Source of the DNA: Gallionellaceae bacterium
GTDB lineage: Bacteria; Pseudomonadota; Gammaproteobacteria; Burkholderiales; Gallionellaceae
Length of the DNA stretch: 64,000 nt
Assembly: GCA_030823955.1 (NCBI GenBank)
Contig: JAVBYO010000002.1
Coordinates: forward strand, 62,001-126,000
Direction of reading: 5' to 3'
The position numbers and the translations under genes were made by a program. The notes beneath the pieces are model-generated. The model was not told the DNA's origin, searched no databases, and saw nothing but the letters and a program-made list of their open reading frames with translations. Positions 19,065 to 23,854 of this stretch are shown here, piece after piece (position 1 is the stretch's first letter; every line of letters begins with the position of its first letter).

Positions 19065-20465
19065 ATGCCAAAGAACAACGACGATTCTCACAATCTTTCC
19101 GAGCTGCGCAAACAATTCATCCGTGGATCGATAGTCGATACCCAGCCGCCCCCCCCTATCGTCAGTCCCAACGACAGTTTTCGACATCGCTTTGAGATGC
19201 GCAAAGAGCTGGGACGCGGGGCGGCAGGTGAAGTACATCTTGCCTACGATACCTATCTGCAACGCGAGGTTGCACTCAAGCTCATGCGCTCGGCCTATCT
19301 GGATAATCCGCAGGAAAGTGTGCGCAATCGCAAGATGTGGCTGAACGAGACGCGCCTCGCCGGCAAGTTGCAACACCCGTTCATCGTGCAGATCTTCGAG
19401 GCGTGCAGTGCCGACGACTTCGATTATCTGGTGATGGAATACGTTCCCGGCGGGACGCTCAAACAACACACCAGCTTCGACAATCTGCTGCCGGTCGATC
19501 GTCTGATTGATATCCTGTACAAGGTGTGCAACGCACTGGATTATTCCCACAAGATGGGCATCCTGCATCGCGATATCAAACCCAGCAATGTGCTGCTGGG
19601 CGAGGACAACGCGGTCAAAGTGTCGGACTTTGGCGCCGCCTTCCTGCTCAACTCGGATACCACCCAAGTCGATATGGTTGGCACGCTGCCGTTCATGCCA
19701 CCGGAGCAGTTCGCGCATGCACGTCCGTCGGTACAGTCGGACATCTACGCGGTCGGAGTTATGGCCTACCAACTGCTCACCGGCATGTTGCCGTTCACCG
19801 CAAAGTCCTACGACGAGATGATCTACCAGAAGCTGCACGAAGAAGCCTTGCCGCTGGAGAAGCGGCGACTGGATATTCCGCAGGCATTACGTTTTGCGGT
19901 TCATCGCGCCATGCATCGCGATAAAGAGATGCGTTACCACAACTGGAAAGCGTTCTGCGACGACCTGGTCGCGGCATTACCGAGTGTGGCAAGGCCGCAG
20001 GAGATGCGCTTCGATTCGGTGCATTTCGATGTGTTGCGCAACTTGTCTTTTTTCGCCGGTTTCAGCGACAACGAAGTCTGGGAGACGGTCGGGATATGCC
20101 AGTGGCAGGAAAGAAAAGCCGGAGAGTGTATTGTGCGCGAAGGCGAAGTCAGCACCAGTCTGTTCGTCATGCTCAGCGGCGAAGCGAAAGTCACCAAGAA
20201 CGACGTGGAGCTGACCCGTATGCACGCGGGCAGCTGTTTCGGCGAGATCGGCTATCTGGATGAAGAGCGCCATGTACGGCTGGCGACGGTCACGGCAATC
20301 AGCGATATGCGCCTGATCATGATCGAGGGCGAGTCGCTGCAACATGCCAGCGACGGCTTGCAGGCCAGCTTTGCCAAAGCCTTTCTGAGCCTGATGATCT
20401 CCCGCATCAAAGATACAGACCGGCGCCTGCTTGCGGTCTTGTTGGCTCAGCCTGCGGCAACTTAG
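19065..20465 (+). CDS. Ser/Thr protein kinase fused to a cyclic-nucleotide-binding domain
   Basis: The 466 aa protein has a Hanks-type kinase domain at about residues 44-305: glycine loop GRGAAGEV, Lys72, catalytic HRDIKPSN (Asp170), DFG at 188-190 and MPPEQF. A cNMP-binding (Crp/PKA-R type) domain follows at about 325-425, including the phosphate cassette CFGEIGYLDEERHVRLATVT with its Arg405. No transmembrane segment is seen, so it is probably cytoplasmic. The track start lies inside the upstream gene; ATG at 19065 begins MPKNND. It follows the carbonic anhydrase by 40 bp on the same strand. The order kinase then cNMP domain is the reverse of eukaryotic PKG. Ligand and targets are unknown. 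Confidence 0.9.
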   Translation: MPKNNDDSHNLSELRKQFIRGSIVDTQPPPPIVSPNDSFRHRFEMRKELGRGAAGEVHLAYDTYLQREVALKLMRSAYLDNPQESVRNRKMWLNETRLAGKLQHPFIVQIFEACSADDFDYLVMEYVPGGTLKQHTSFDNLLPVDRLIDILYKVCNALDYSHKMGILHRDIKPSNVLLGEDNAVKVSDFGAAFLLNSDTTQVDMVGTLPFMPPEQFAHARPSVQSDIYAVGVMAYQLLTGMLPFTAKSYDEMIYQKLHEEALPLEKRRLDIPQALRFAVHRAMHRDKEMRYHNWKAFCDDLVAALPSVARPQEMRFDSVHFDVLRNLSFFAGFSDNEVWETVGICQWQERKAGECIVREGEVSTSLFVMLSGEAKVTKNDVELTRMHAGSCFGEIGYLDEERHVRLATVTAISDMRLIMIEGESLQHASDGLQASFAKAFLSLMISRIKDTDRRLLAVLLAQPAAT

Positions 20466-20793
20466 CCGGTAAATCACAGGAATACGATAGTGCGCAACGG
20501 TGCGCATCTATATAGGACTGTGTGGAGGTGTTCGTGCTGACGGCAGCCGTAATGATGTGCTGCCCGCTGCGGGTATCGTAACGGGCATGACTAGCGTGGT
20601 TGAGGCGCGGCTTTGAAGCAGATTCGTGTTGTTGGTCTGGCGCAGCAGCGCCAAGGTCTGGCAGAGCCGAGACCACCAGCAACAGCAACACGATGCTGGA
20701 TGCGCTCCATAACACCATCCATCCGGATGGGGAGGATGTCTCGTTATTGAGTAAATCAGATAGTCGGGCCGAAACGGGATAGAACACGCGCAT
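20407..20793 (-). CDS. Small single-pass membrane protein, unrecognised
   Basis: A 128 aa reading frame starting at 20793 with a good ribosome binding site (GGAGGT four bases before the ATG). One hydrophobic segment, WSASSIVLLLLVVSALPDLG, is at about residues 29-48; the rest is polar and low in recognisable motifs. The last 59 bp overlap the 3' end of the kinase gene on the opposite strand, so the C-terminus may be poorly constrained. It diverges from the DUF6502 gene across a palindrome-rich gap. The ribosome binding site and membrane segment argue for a real gene, but I know no family. Confidence 0.5.
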   Translation of the reverse strand: MRVFYPVSARLSDLLNNETSSPSGWMVLWSASSIVLLLLVVSALPDLGAAAPDQQHESASKPRLNHASHARYDTRSGQHIITAAVSTNTSTQSYIDAHRCALSYSCDLPAKLPQAEPTRPQAGAGLYL

Positions 20794-20823
20794 AACCACC
20801 TCCATTAAAAATTGACCACACAA

Positions 20824-20850
20824 GCTGCGTGTGAAAATTTCCCACGCAGC
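20824..20850. promoter_or_regulatory. Inverted repeat upstream of the small membrane gene
   Basis: GCTGCGTG (20824-20831) and CACGCAGC (20843-20850) form an 8 bp perfect inverted repeat around an AT-rich centre. It lies 31 bp upstream of the minus-strand gene and 77 bp upstream of the DUF6502 GTG. It could be an operator; it has no T tract to suggest a terminator on either side. Confidence 0.45.
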
Positions 20851-20889
20851 AAGATGCTAGCCGAGCTTAATTCGCTTGTAAAGCACTTT

Positions 20890-20906
20890 GTGTGATTTTT
20901 TCACAC
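20890..20906. promoter_or_regulatory. Palindrome in the DUF6502 promoter
   Basis: GTGTGA-TTTTT-TCACAC is a perfect 6+5+6 palindrome. It sits just upstream of a TAGAAT (20914-20919) that could act as a -10 for the cassette. The half-sites resemble CRP half-sites (TGTGA/TCACA), but the spacer is five bases instead of six, so a different regulator is likely. Confidence 0.5.
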
Positions 20907-20926
20907 GACATGTTAGAATCCCCGAT

Positions 20927-21784
20927 GTGAATAGAGAGATCCGACCAATCACCAGTTCCCATACGCCGCCTCCCGCACTGATCGCGGCGTTGCGGCGGTT
21001 GTTGCGCCCGCTCATCAAACTGATGTTGGTCAATGGCATCACATTCCCGTTTTTATCCAGTCTGCTCAAATCTCTATATGTGGAAGTCGCCAGGGAGGAG
21101 TTCCTGCTCAACGGTAAACCACAGACTGATAGCCGTATCAGCCTGTTGAGCGGAGTGCATCGCAAAGATGTGAAACGGCTGGGAGAAGAAAGCCAACTGG
21201 AATATGCACCACCACCGACCGTATCGTTGGGAGCCAAACTGGTCGCGGCATGGACTAGCAACGCCCTGTATCTGGACGAGAAGGGGCAGCATCTTCCCTT
21301 GCCGCGCCAAGCGAGCGAAGGCGGGGCCTGTTCATTCGAAGGCTTGGTCAGCTCAGTGAGCAAAGATATCCGTTCTCGCGTCATCCTGGACGAATGGCTG
21401 CGTATCGGCATCGCCCATCTGGACGAGATGGATCGCGTGTGTCTGAACACCGAGGCCTTCATCCCGGAAAACGGCTATGAAGAAAAAGCCTATTATTTCG
21501 GCCAGAACCTGCATGACCATATCGCTGCGGGTGCCCACAACCTGCTGGGACAACGCCCCCCCTTTCTTGATAGAAGTGTGTATTACGATGGATTGACCCC
21601 GGCGTCCGTCGCTGAACTATCCGAGTTATCCAAGAAGCTCGGCATGGAGGCACTGGTCGCGGTGAATAAACGCGCGGAGACATTGCAGAAGAAGGATGCC
21701 GAACAGGCGGAAGCTGTTCAGCGTATCAATTTTGGTGTCTACTACTTCGGAGTAGAAGAAAAAAGGTTGCCCGATGAAAAGTGA
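20927..21784 (+). CDS. DUF6502 family protein
   Basis: The 285 aa protein (from GTG at 20927) looks like the DUF6502 family: TPPPALIAALRRLLRPLIKLML near the start, then NGITFPFLSSLLKSLYVEVA and TDSRISLLSGVHRKDVKRL, which resembles a winged-helix or HTH-like region. It has no signal peptide. Function is unknown; a DNA-binding or regulatory role is possible given the SLLSGVHRKDVKRL helix. The track start at 20888 is TTG inside the palindrome. A TAGAAT ends seven bases before the GTG, so the message could be leaderless. The gene overlaps the DUF5666 gene by 11 bp, so the two are co-translated. Confidence 0.75.
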   Translation: MNREIRPITSSHTPPPALIAALRRLLRPLIKLMLVNGITFPFLSSLLKSLYVEVAREEFLLNGKPQTDSRISLLSGVHRKDVKRLGEESQLEYAPPPTVSLGAKLVAAWTSNALYLDEKGQHLPLPRQASEGGACSFEGLVSSVSKDIRSRVILDEWLRIGIAHLDEMDRVCLNTEAFIPENGYEEKAYYFGQNLHDHIAAGAHNLLGQRPPFLDRSVYYDGLTPASVAELSELSKKLGMEALVAVNKRAETLQKKDAEQAEAVQRINFGVYYFGVEEKRLPDEK

Positions 21785-23081
21785 CCGTCAAATGTTTACC
21801 GCCATGATGTTGCTTGCGCTGCTGTTGCCGGTAACAGCAGCGGCCGAAGACTGCCGCGGCATTGGCGGGACGGGACGCACCAGCCTGGACTGTGGCATCG
21901 GAGGAACCGGCAAAAGCATGACCGGCATCGGCGGTACCGGGCATGGCGGTATCGGTGGCACCGGCAGCCTCGCCAACAAGACAGGCATCGGTGGGACAGG
22001 ACATAGCGACGGCGGCATCGGCGGTACCGGAATCGTGGGTACCATCACCGGTTTCGGCAGTATCTGGGTCAACGGACTGGAAGTCGACTACGACGCCAAG
22101 ACCAAGCTGCTCAATAACGAAACGAGCGCAAAAACCGATGAACTGGCAATCGGCCAGATCGTGGTGGTCGAAGCCAAGGGTGATGACCAGCGCTTGCAGG
22201 CAGACAAGATTACGGTCATCCATGCCGTGGACGGAGAGATCTCCGCCATCGACGCCGCGCAGAACAAACTTACGGTATTGGGACAAAGCGTCACTCGTAC
22301 GGCACAGACCGTGGTACAGGATAGGCAGTCGCAACAGCCCGCAATACAACTCAAGCAGGGTGAACACATCAGGGTGAGCGGTCTGCGAATGGCGAACGGA
22401 CAGATCGTCGCCTCGCGTATCGAGCGTAGCAACGCTGCAGCAGAATCCGGTGTGGTCGGCCCGATCACGGCAATCGATGGCGACACGATACAGATATACG
22501 ATCTCAAGATCCGCACAAAAGAACGTACCGGACTCAAGGTCGGCCAAGAGATCCTAGTGAAGGGGCGCGTCGAAAATGGCATGCTCAACGCCGCCGAGAT
22601 CACCCTCAGTCCGGTGACCCGGTTATACGGACGCACCGAGCGTATCAATCTGCAGGGTTATGTCGGCTCTGTCGGTGCGGACGGCCAGGTTAGGATCGGA
22701 GAGCTCGAAGTGATCCCCAATCCGACCGACGCGAACAGGCAAGATCGGCAAACAATCACACCGGGCGAGTTGGTTCAGATCAGCGGCCGTTTCAGCGGCG
22801 ACCACAGAGTGATCGCCGACCGCATAGAGATCAGCCGGGACAGGCCGGAAAGAACGATGCGTGAGGGCGTCGCAAGAGGTGAGCGTAATAGTGCGGGCCA
22901 GATCGAGCGATCTGATCGTTCTGACCACTCCGATCATTCGGATCGCTCTGACCGTGCTGATCGGGCAGATCGTTCGGATAGAGCTGATCGTGCCGAGCGG
23001 AACGACCATGCCGACCGTCCCGACAAGCCGGATCGCTCCGATCATTCGGATGCCGAAAAACATTCGGACAAAAAACACTGA
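21774..23081 (+). CDS. Secreted DUF5666 protein with GIGGTG repeats and D/R/H-rich tail
   Basis: The 435 aa protein has a signal peptide (hydrophobic FTAMMLLALLLPVTAAAED, cleavage near residue 24). Six GIGGTG hexapeptides follow in residues 28-88. The middle, about 90-365, holds repeated small beta-type units resembling DUF5666 (for example TGFGSIWVNGLEV and ISAIDAAQNKLTVLG). The tail, about 378-435, is built of X-D-R or X-D-H tripeptides and is rich in Asp, His and Arg. Such a tail could bind metal ions or stay disordered at the surface. It overlaps both neighbours (11 bp with DUF6502; ATG inside the stop with the OMP gene), so the three genes form a tight unit. Function unknown. Confidence 0.8.
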   Translation: MKSDRQMFTAMMLLALLLPVTAAAEDCRGIGGTGRTSLDCGIGGTGKSMTGIGGTGHGGIGGTGSLANKTGIGGTGHSDGGIGGTGIVGTITGFGSIWVNGLEVDYDAKTKLLNNETSAKTDELAIGQIVVVEAKGDDQRLQADKITVIHAVDGEISAIDAAQNKLTVLGQSVTRTAQTVVQDRQSQQPAIQLKQGEHIRVSGLRMANGQIVASRIERSNAAAESGVVGPITAIDGDTIQIYDLKIRTKERTGLKVGQEILVKGRVENGMLNAAEITLSPVTRLYGRTERINLQGYVGSVGADGQVRIGELEVIPNPTDANRQDRQTITPGELVQISGRFSGDHRVIADRIEISRDRPERTMREGVARGERNSAGQIERSDRSDHSDHSDRSDRADRADRSDRADRAERNDHADRPDKPDRSDHSDAEKHSDKKH

Positions 23082-23854
23082 TGAACAAGACTGGCACACG
23101 GTACATGCACAGCATCTTGTTGACGGGCCTATCGTCCGTCAGCTCCTGTGTGCTGGCGGGCTCGCTGAGCCTGACCAGCGGCATGGATTTCAGTTCGGGT
23201 AAATATGGCGGGACGACTGAAACCAGCGTCATCTACATTCCCGTGAGCGGAAAATACGAGACCGAGAACTGGCTGTTCAAACTGACCGTGCCCTACATCA
23301 GCATCACCGGCCCGGCAAACACCACGCCGAACATCGGACAAGCCGTGTATGAGGAGGACGATGTACGCACCGACTCCGGCTTGGGGGATGTTGTTGCATC
23401 CACCAGTTATAGCCTGGTCAATTCGGCACGCAGCGGACTCATCATCGATGTCACCGGCAAGGTGAAATTCGGCACGGCAGACAAATACCGGGGGCTGGGG
23501 AGCGGTGTGAACGACTATTACGGCGAGACCAGTGTGTACAAGATATTTGGTCGCGCCAGTGCGTTTGGCACACTGGGATACAAGGTTTACGAACCTGCGG
23601 TCGGTTATACGCTGGACAACGTGTTCTATGGCTCGCTGGGGATCAGCAACAAGCTCGATGCCAGAAGCAGTGCCGGGTTGATCTATGACTACCGGCAACC
23701 CACTGCGGTATGGAGCGATCCGCAGAGCATGTGGACGATCTTTCTGAACCGCAAGATCAGCGACAAGTGGAAGGCGCAGACCTATTTCTTCAAAGGAACC
23801 GGGACATCCAGCCCGGATCTGGGCGGCGGCGCGCTACTCACACAGAGCTTTTAA
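23081..23854 (+). CDS. Predicted outer-membrane beta-barrel protein
   Basis: The 257 aa protein has a signal peptide (MHSILLTGLSSVSSCVLAGS) and alternating aromatic/hydrophobic strands such as WLFKLTVPYISITG and LIIDVTGKVKFGT. It ends in LLTQSF, with the terminal Phe typical of outer-membrane barrels recognised by BamA. The pattern resembles transporter-like barrels of the phenol-degradation MetA group, but I cannot name the family securely. Its ATG overlaps the stop of the DUF5666 gene (TGATG), so it is the third gene of the cassette and may export, anchor or display the DUF5666 protein. It converges on the next gene with a five-base gap. Confidence 0.75.
   Translation: MNKTGTRYMHSILLTGLSSVSSCVLAGSLSLTSGMDFSSGKYGGTTETSVIYIPVSGKYETENWLFKLTVPYISITGPANTTPNIGQAVYEEDDVRTDSGLGDVVASTSYSLVNSARSGLIIDVTGKVKFGTADKYRGLGSGVNDYYGETSVYKIFGRASAFGTLGYKVYEPAVGYTLDNVFYGSLGISNKLDARSSAGLIYDYRQPTAVWSDPQSMWTIFLNRKISDKWKAQTYFFKGTGTSSPDLGGGALLTQSF

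Follow-up and report, generated by a model that had tools for sequence, protein, structure and literature searches.

The DUF6502 locus

The window, i.e., the whole analysed stretch of 64,000 nucleotides from a Gallionellaceae genome, carries a predicted operon of three genes which encode a DUF6502 protein, a secreted protein with GIGGTG repeats and DUF5666 domains, and an outer-membrane barrel; a small membrane protein gene, here referred to as div, diverges from the common control region. All of these parts had been named in an earlier sequence-only reading and are present, and the overlaps claimed there, 11 bp between the genes of DUF6502 and the secreted protein and 1 bp (TGATG) between those of the secreted protein and the barrel, are borne out. 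The features are as follows:

20407..20793, minus strand: div, divergent small membrane protein gene; ORF with RBS GGAGGT; presumed DUF6502 regulon member
20830..20844, no strand: operator 1, TGTGAAAATTTCCCA; conserved in relatives
20854..20882, minus strand: probable div promoter TTTACA-17-TAGCAT, between both operators; hexamers conserved in relatives
20891..20905, no strand: operator 2, TGTGATTTTTTCACA; 61 bp from operator 1; nearly invariant in relatives
20914..20919, plus strand: possible -10 TAGAAT of the DUF6502 promoter, suggested by sequence and alignment
20927 (GTG)..21784, plus strand: DUF6502; PF20112, E 4e-33; putative operator-binding regulator
21131..21190, plus strand: putative helix-turn-helix, DUF6502 residues 69-88, RISLLSGVHRKDVKRLGEES region; most conserved segment
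21774..23081, plus strand: secreted GIGGTG-repeat/DUF5666 protein; PF18914, E 3.6e-30; conserved partner
21858..22031, plus strand: six GGTG (GIGGTG) repeats, residues 29-86, directly after the signal peptide
22029..22601, plus strand: DUF5666 domain copies (PF18914 profile)
23081..23854, plus strand: outer-membrane barrel, distant relative of PF13557/COG4313 channels

The start of DUF6502 was placed at GTG 20927, since relatives show GTG or ATG at the same place; TTG 20888, the start of the listed ORF, was rejected because it would fall within the control region. div begins with an ATG behind GGAGGT and encodes one hydrophobic segment. Its homologues at strong E-values are found only in genomes that carry DUF6502, five besides that of the window, and mark it as a real gene. 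The immediate neighbours of the operon encode a kinase and a DUF4124 protein. The kinase (19068-20465) was dismissed as a cassette member, as it lies upstream just in near relatives with whole synteny and is missing in others.

DUF6502 and DUF5666 travel together

The DUF6502 protein matches PF20112 over profile positions 3-263 of 268 with 114.9 bits (curated cut-off 27; E 4e-33). This family has no described function. Our literature search found no paper naming it, and nothing relevant on DUF6502, GIGGTG or the palindrome described below. Across Pseudomonadota, genes for DUF6502 and DUF5666 co-occur and adjoin, with ATGA-type overlaps. In the class sample, 83 genomes carry both families, 16 and 11 only one of them, and 259 neither (p=3e-53). 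The corresponding counts are 13, 8, 0 and 99 in the family sample, and 13, 1, 9 and 226 in the phylum sample (p=4e-15). The association is far beyond chance, and the cassette is real and conserved; the adjacency is widespread instead of being peculiar to one genome. DUF6502 and the GIGGTG secreted protein form the conserved core; the barrel is confined to one branch.

The adjacent pair also occurs on four annotated plasmids of Alphaproteobacteria. Among the plasmids with the pair are those of Rhizobium, Methylocystis and Azospirillum.

The secreted partner and the barrel

The secreted protein, which has six GGTG motifs, matches PF18914 (DUF5666) in four stretches with 104 bits (curated cut-off 27; E 3.6e-30) and holds several copies of the domain; a PDB profile search with it gave no match. 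The literature that we found has PF18914 in gene lists only, and neither the GIGGTG element nor the partnership with DUF6502 is described there. A comparison of partners shows that secretion signal and GIGGTG motif are the constant part of DUF6502's secreted partner: a GIGGTG-like motif occurs in 41 of 46 partners vs 3 of 555 in the comparison set. DUF5666 can be exchanged for FecR (a match over the curated cut-off) or other modules. DUF5666 had been presented as a cassette member, which is true of the window; elsewhere it is replaceable by FecR, a fibronectin-like module or the tail only.

In the sister branch the partner is a lipoprotein with one GIGGTG, whereas in the barrel branch the element is multiplied 2-8 times and the lipobox is mostly missing. 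At least two repeats are found in 15 of 16 barrel loci vs 4 of 30 loci without barrel, and the lipobox is missing in 14 of 16 vs 4 of 30. Since a single clade split separates the loci by barrel, by repeat number and by lipobox alike, these counts are not independent tests.

The barrel of the window has no Pfam match, and a PDB profile search was also empty; its homologue L024 (39% identical) matches PF13557 above the curated cut-off. An AlphaFold model of low confidence (pLDDT 53) predicts about 12 antiparallel strands; the last residue of the protein is Phe. The first strand of the model starts at residue 28, directly after the signal helix, with neither coiled coil nor plug. In a Foldseek search with this model, FapF chains took the top 15 places (E as low as 4e-8, TM around 0.6), with COG4313 and other barrels close behind.

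A palindrome at the head of DUF6502 operons

Upstream of DUF6502 operons we observe a palindrome that is new here. It reads TGKGA-N5-TCMCA in the DUF6502 branch of the window and TGGGA-N6-TCCCA in the other branch. Two copies, and no more, are present in the window; they lie 61 bp from each other in the region that separates div and DUF6502. TAGAAT, the possible -10, is located 3 bp past the arm region of operator 2 and 7 bp ahead of the GTG. The hexamers of the div promoter match the consensus, which alone is at chance level.

In Gallionellaceae, a site with spacing 5 precedes 10 of 20 DUF6502 genes vs 0 of 242 other genes, and none was found at other spacings; three sister genomes from the genus contain no sites of the N5 form other than the pair ahead of DUF6502. 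In the rest of the class, 12 of 36 DUF6502 upstream regions carry a site with spacing 6, and in operons that start with a DUF5666 gene, the site precedes that gene. Genome-wide, the N6 form has 24 sites in 17 genomes with DUF6502 vs none in 9 genomes without it.

The spacing changes once, from one form to the other, on a DUF6502 tree of 68 rows (SH-aLRT 99; 0 of 500 shuffles), 28 of which show no recognisable operator. The N5 clade unites Alphaproteobacteria, Gallionellaceae and three other gamma lineages. Because this single change crosses taxonomic lines, DUF6502 is, as judged from sequence comparison, very probably the binder of the palindrome. Palindromic sites, in all probability its cognate operators, stand before its own operon and the genes of a regulon, and they co-vary with the protein.

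Residues 69-88, the most conserved segment of DUF6502, form two helices in an AlphaFold model (five sequences, pLDDT 42) that served for rough secondary structure alone. The model would be compatible with a helix-turn-helix, which we infer as the DNA-binding fold; profile and PDB searches for such a motif, with the whole protein and two sub-domains, returned nothing significant.

Proposed mechanism and alternative readings

The best explanation as a whole, to which we assign a probability of about three in four, treats the cassette as an envelope module that regulates itself. Gene order, operator, regulon and module exchange are supported by comparison among relatives; beyond these we infer direct DNA binding by DUF6502, repression, an interaction of barrel and repeats, and a physiological role. 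DUF6502, a cytoplasmic protein, would bind, presumably as a dimer, to the short palindrome (here TGTGA-N5-TCMCA). The two operators, 61 bp apart, bracket the probable div promoter, and operator 2 would abut the promoter of DUF6502. Because of this position, DUF6502 most likely represses its own operon and div until a signal releases repression. The operon would then co-translate regulator, secreted protein and barrel. In the secreted protein, the GIGGTG element follows the signal peptide and precedes the exchangeable module, DUF5666 in this case. The barrel would take on the task of anchoring, exporting or displaying the repeat protein. The sequence-only reading had envisaged a surface system that has a regulator of its own: the regulator is strongly supported, with the operator evidence pointing to DUF6502 itself. 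Display or export via the barrel is plausible in view of the FapF-like fold match and the link to multiplied repeats, but the defining features of FapF are missing. Autoregulated one-component regulators with TetR-like layouts have paired operators in a control region shared by divergent genes. The palindromes at divergent promoters and the presumed autoregulation resemble these, but DUF6502 matches none of their families by profile.

The palindrome might instead be owned by another transcription factor, e.g., of the CRP/FNR type, with DUF6502 as an enzyme or adaptor in the cytoplasm that just happens to be encoded in the controlled operon. TGTGA...TCACA resembles the CRP half-site, and DUF6502 lacks a match to any HTH profile. 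However, CRP sites (TGTGA-N6-TCACA) require a spacing of 6, and CRP/FNR sites are many per genome; the spacing in this branch is 5, the N5 pattern occurs 0-4 times per genome (three sites in that of the window), and the N6 form is missing from the 9 genomes without DUF6502. Since the spacing moreover follows the DUF6502 tree across taxa, we regard a foreign owner of the palindrome as very unlikely.

Two further alternatives concern the barrel. It could be a FapF-like exporter, with the GIGGTG-repeat protein as a secreted, possibly self-assembling substrate, so that the cassette would be a small fibre or matrix secretion system. The FapF amyloid transporter (5o65/5o67/5o68) is a 12-stranded barrel with an N-terminal periplasmic coiled coil, a helical plug and PTG motifs in the loop of strands 5-6 (PMC5557850). 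FapF is the best fold match of our low-confidence model with about 12 strands, a repeat-bearing secreted protein is encoded in the same operon, and barrel loci have multiplied repeats, usually without lipobox. Yet the model has a pLDDT of 53, COG4313 and other barrels score nearly as well, the window barrel lacks N-terminal coiled coil, plug helix and PTG (the alignment has GKVKFGTADK at this place), no C39 protease (FapD) or FapB/FapC homologue is found among the immediate neighbours, and the DUF5666 domains look folded, not amyloid-like; we therefore hold such an exporter to be unlikely. Alternatively, the barrel could be a small-molecule channel of the PF13557/COG4313 type ('MetA-pathway of phenol degradation', 4rl8). 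The DUF5666 protein would then be a binding or stabilising partner in the periplasm, and DUF6502 would sense the imported compound. The fold class is the same, L024 passes the cut-off, and regulator and transporter would share one operon. The window barrel itself is below detection, GTA replaces the PTG/lateral-gate motif, no catabolic genes are conserved nearby (the inspected neighbours include none of a phenol pathway), and the sister branch makes do with the core pair and no barrel, which leaves the channel a rather doubtful reading. Under the self-regulated envelope module, two families of unknown function that travel together across Pseudomonadota gain a concrete, falsifiable role. The proposal of a regulator role with an operator for PF20112 is made here. 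Unusually, the spacing of the operator and the architecture of the partner (a lipoprotein, or a repeat protein plus barrel) divide along the same branch of the regulator family.

Probable regulon and targets in trans

DUF6502 is assigned an operator of 15-16 bp whose spacing depends on the branch, together with a small regulon that would include genes elsewhere on the chromosome. By the operator evidence, div is a likely member of this regulon, and unlinked copies of div also carry twin operators. Four unlinked DUF5666 lipoprotein genes have a site 57-89 bp upstream. In a survey of 80 genomes, the same sites precede some multiheme-cytochrome operons; a perfect site at a cytochrome operon was also seen in one genome scored as lacking DUF6502 (G167, 88% complete). 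Because some of these operons carry the operator, the physiological role is possibly in redox or electron transfer. More far-reaching, and in our view improbable in its entirety, is the idea that DUF6502 founds a new transcription-factor family controlling a modular GIGGTG surface system tied to multiheme-cytochrome electron transfer. Exchangeable modules would be combined with one constant element for export or anchoring, and in one branch a dedicated barrel would replace the lipid anchor as a new kind of outer-membrane display or export.

Single N5 sites elsewhere in Gallionellaceae were rejected as regulon sites, as they do not, taken together, exceed background (9 in 21 genomes with DUF6502, 6 in 18 without). 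Excluded from this count is TGGGATATTATCCCA; it turns up repeatedly in genomes lacking DUF6502 and resembles a tRNA variable arm. Sites were kept at DUF6502, at div and, by conservation across lineages, at the cytochrome operon. Four relatives (L031, L033, L035 and L036) keep DUF6502 with no GIGGTG/DUF5666 partner in the stretch examined, and the regulator can therefore serve other targets.

Overall reading of the cassette

The most likely reading of the cassette is an envelope module that regulates itself. DUF6502 (PF20112) would act on its own operon, on the divergent small membrane protein gene, here called div, and on a few trans targets via a branch-specific palindrome, the operator (TGKGA-N5-TCMCA, N5, or TGGGA-N6-TCCCA, N6). 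The operon would supply a GIGGTG-type secreted protein, which the barrel encoded here may anchor or export. Comparative sequence evidence backs the gene order, the operator, the regulon and the module swap; binding, repression, export and physiological purpose are inferences.

Cassette genes in the window:
20407-20793, minus strand: div, short protein with one hydrophobic segment
20927-21784: DUF6502 gene, GTG start
21774-23081: GIGGTG/DUF5666 (PF18914) protein gene
23081-23854: outer-membrane barrel gene

The three overlapping genes of the sequence-only reading are present exactly as described, with overlaps of 11 bp (DUF6502/DUF5666 protein) and 1 bp (DUF5666 protein/barrel). DUF6502 starts at GTG 20927, where the aligned relatives show GTG or ATG; TTG 20888 was rejected as a start, as it would put the control region within the gene. 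The window comes from a Gallionellaceae-like MAG; named relatives with a 72-82% identical DUF6502 are MAGs of Gallionellaceae, Betaproteobacteria and Proteobacteria. Directly upstream of the cassette lies a Ser/Thr kinase fused to a cyclic-nucleotide-binding domain (19068-20465, plus strand), whose conservation is limited to genus-level synteny.

Conservation of the DUF6502-DUF5666 pair

DUF6502 and DUF5666 are associated in our family, class and phylum samples. Of 120 genomes in the family, 21 have DUF6502 and 13 have DUF5666; the 13 are all among the 21 (p=2e-12). Among 369 genomes of the class, 83 carry both, 16 only DUF6502 and 11 only DUF5666 (p=3e-53). In the phylum sample (249 genomes), DUF5666 is found in 13 of 14 DUF6502 genomes (p=4e-15), adjoining DUF6502 in all 13 by the listed coordinates. 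A 4-bp overlap is the most frequent junction between DUF6502 and its partner (19/46). The order is also seen on four annotated alphaproteobacterial plasmids, and on that of Methylocystis a third gene is annotated as an outer-membrane beta-barrel. Among the loci compared, flanking genes show no conservation outside the genus. Of the suggested three-gene cassette, the pair proved widespread, whereas the barrel was found in 18 of 61 examined loci, counting the window, and each of these belongs to one DUF6502 branch.

Variant arrangements were also observed. In seven loci of the sister branch B (L081, L082, L086, L087, L090, L094, L108) a DUF5666 lipoprotein gene precedes DUF6502, in most of them a second one also follows, and the operator stands before the first gene. 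Four loci of one Gallionellaceae genus (L031, L033, L035, L036) keep DUF6502 without an adjacent GIGGTG/DUF5666 partner, two of them with an exact operator. On an Acinetobacter "phage" contig (CAKLQH020000029.1, L189), ompA and a gene for a hemagglutinin/invasin precede a DUF6502 homologue of 29% identity, which has a transposase as a neighbour.

Partner protein and barrel

The partner is marked by a motif following its signal peptide: G-x(1,2)-GTG, mostly GIGGTG, occurs within 140 residues in 41 of 46 partners vs 3 of 555 other genes of the same loci, and several of the remaining partners have GIGGSG instead. The module after it varies. DUF5666 is present in most partners and a FecR module in five Gallionellaceae loci (3/3 scanned exceed the curated cut-off); the L112 partner is a long lipoprotein that looks fibronectin-like by sequence reading, that of L103 bears an uncharacterised module, and that of L105 (93 aa) a charged tail alone.

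Branch B partners are nearly always lipoproteins with a single GIGGTG. In barrel loci the lipobox, scored by a crude pattern, is usually missing and 2-8 copies of the motif are present. At least two copies occur in 15/16 barrel loci vs 4/30 loci without barrel, but barrel, repeat and lipobox contrasts all follow one phylogenetic split, and p-values therefore overstate independence.

The barrel gene lies near DUF6502 in either orientation. Its product carries a signal peptide, ends in Phe and is modelled with about 12 strands. Among profiles PF13557 comes closest, through a match to the homologue in L024. Foldseek with the barrel model ranks FapF, the Pseudomonas amyloid exporter, first, with a COG4313 channel among the following hits. 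We do not assign the barrel to FapF, because the coiled coil, plug and PTG motif of FapF (PMC5557850) are missing.

Operator and its probable binder

Inverted repeats stand immediately 5' of DUF6502 in many relatives. Within Gallionellaceae loci, the N5 form lies upstream of 10/20 DUF6502 genes vs 0/242 other genes, and spacings other than 5 were not found upstream of DUF6502. Elsewhere in the class, 12/36 DUF6502 genes have the site with spacing 6; apparent control hits at this spacing (14/351 other genes) are largely upstream of DUF5666 genes leading an operon, and the site therefore marks the operon head. The window holds just two N5 sites, 20830-20844 and 20891-20905 (chance 0.19), 61 bp apart on either side of the probable div promoter, the latter abutting the DUF6502 promoter region. 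Genome-wide, N5 occurs 0-4 times per genome, and three sister genomes within the genus have no sites besides the pair at DUF6502. For N6, 24 sites were found in 17 genomes with DUF6502 vs none in 9 without.

A 68-protein DUF6502 tree (operator labels: N5, 17 rows; N6, 23 rows) requires one change of spacing, at a split with 99% SH-aLRT, vs 13 changes on average with shuffled labels. The N5 side unites Gallionellaceae, three further gammaproteobacterial lineages (L104, L115, L116) and, from the Alphaproteobacteria, Azospirillum, Pseudoroseomonas, Microvirga and Methylocystis, the last with a pair of sites at a distance of 59 bp. Spacing thus tracks the DUF6502 protein, not the taxon, as expected were DUF6502 itself the binder. 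A conserved RISxLTGxHRKxVKRL segment and helices 69-75 and 79-88 of a poor model suggest a helix-turn-helix, for which profile searches gave no confirming match. DUF6502 would probably bind the site directly, most likely as a repressor.

One further candidate operator, TGGGATATTATCCCA (L128, L131 and other genomes), was discarded as a false positive: it recurs in genomes without DUF6502. It adjoins an apparent tRNA with a long variable arm.

Putative regulon beyond the cassette

Clear div homologues (E below 1e-13) are restricted to genomes with DUF6502. Unlinked copies in genomes G003 and G041 bear the same paired sites at a distance of 59-61 bp; the gene on the far side of the G003 pair encodes a MipA/OmpV-type outer-membrane protein. 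Four unlinked DUF5666 lipoprotein genes have an N6 site 57-89 bp upstream.

A divergent electron-transfer locus, with an FAD/4Fe-4S oxidoreductase on one side and a membrane protein plus multiheme cytochrome c opposite, carries the operator in two distantly related genomes, the window's own (N5, G000:C2) and G153 (N6); in four more genomes it lies upstream of the membrane-protein gene. Upstream DNA totalling 19 kb holds six sites, vs 3 in 94 kb elsewhere. We regard this target as moderately supported, because two of the six are the discovery cases and many genomes have the locus without a site.

Two cytochrome loci also have a single operator-like site upstream: in G077 (L130 site 5001) a gene for a secreted multiheme cytochrome of MtrC/MtrF-like type, and in G041 (L125 site 5001) a cluster of cytochrome b561 and cytochrome c genes. 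In G060, an N5 operator precedes each of two unlinked paralogous genes for small secreted HGRGADD-repeat proteins (L134 site 3724, L135 site 333) at a distance of about 110-130 bp.
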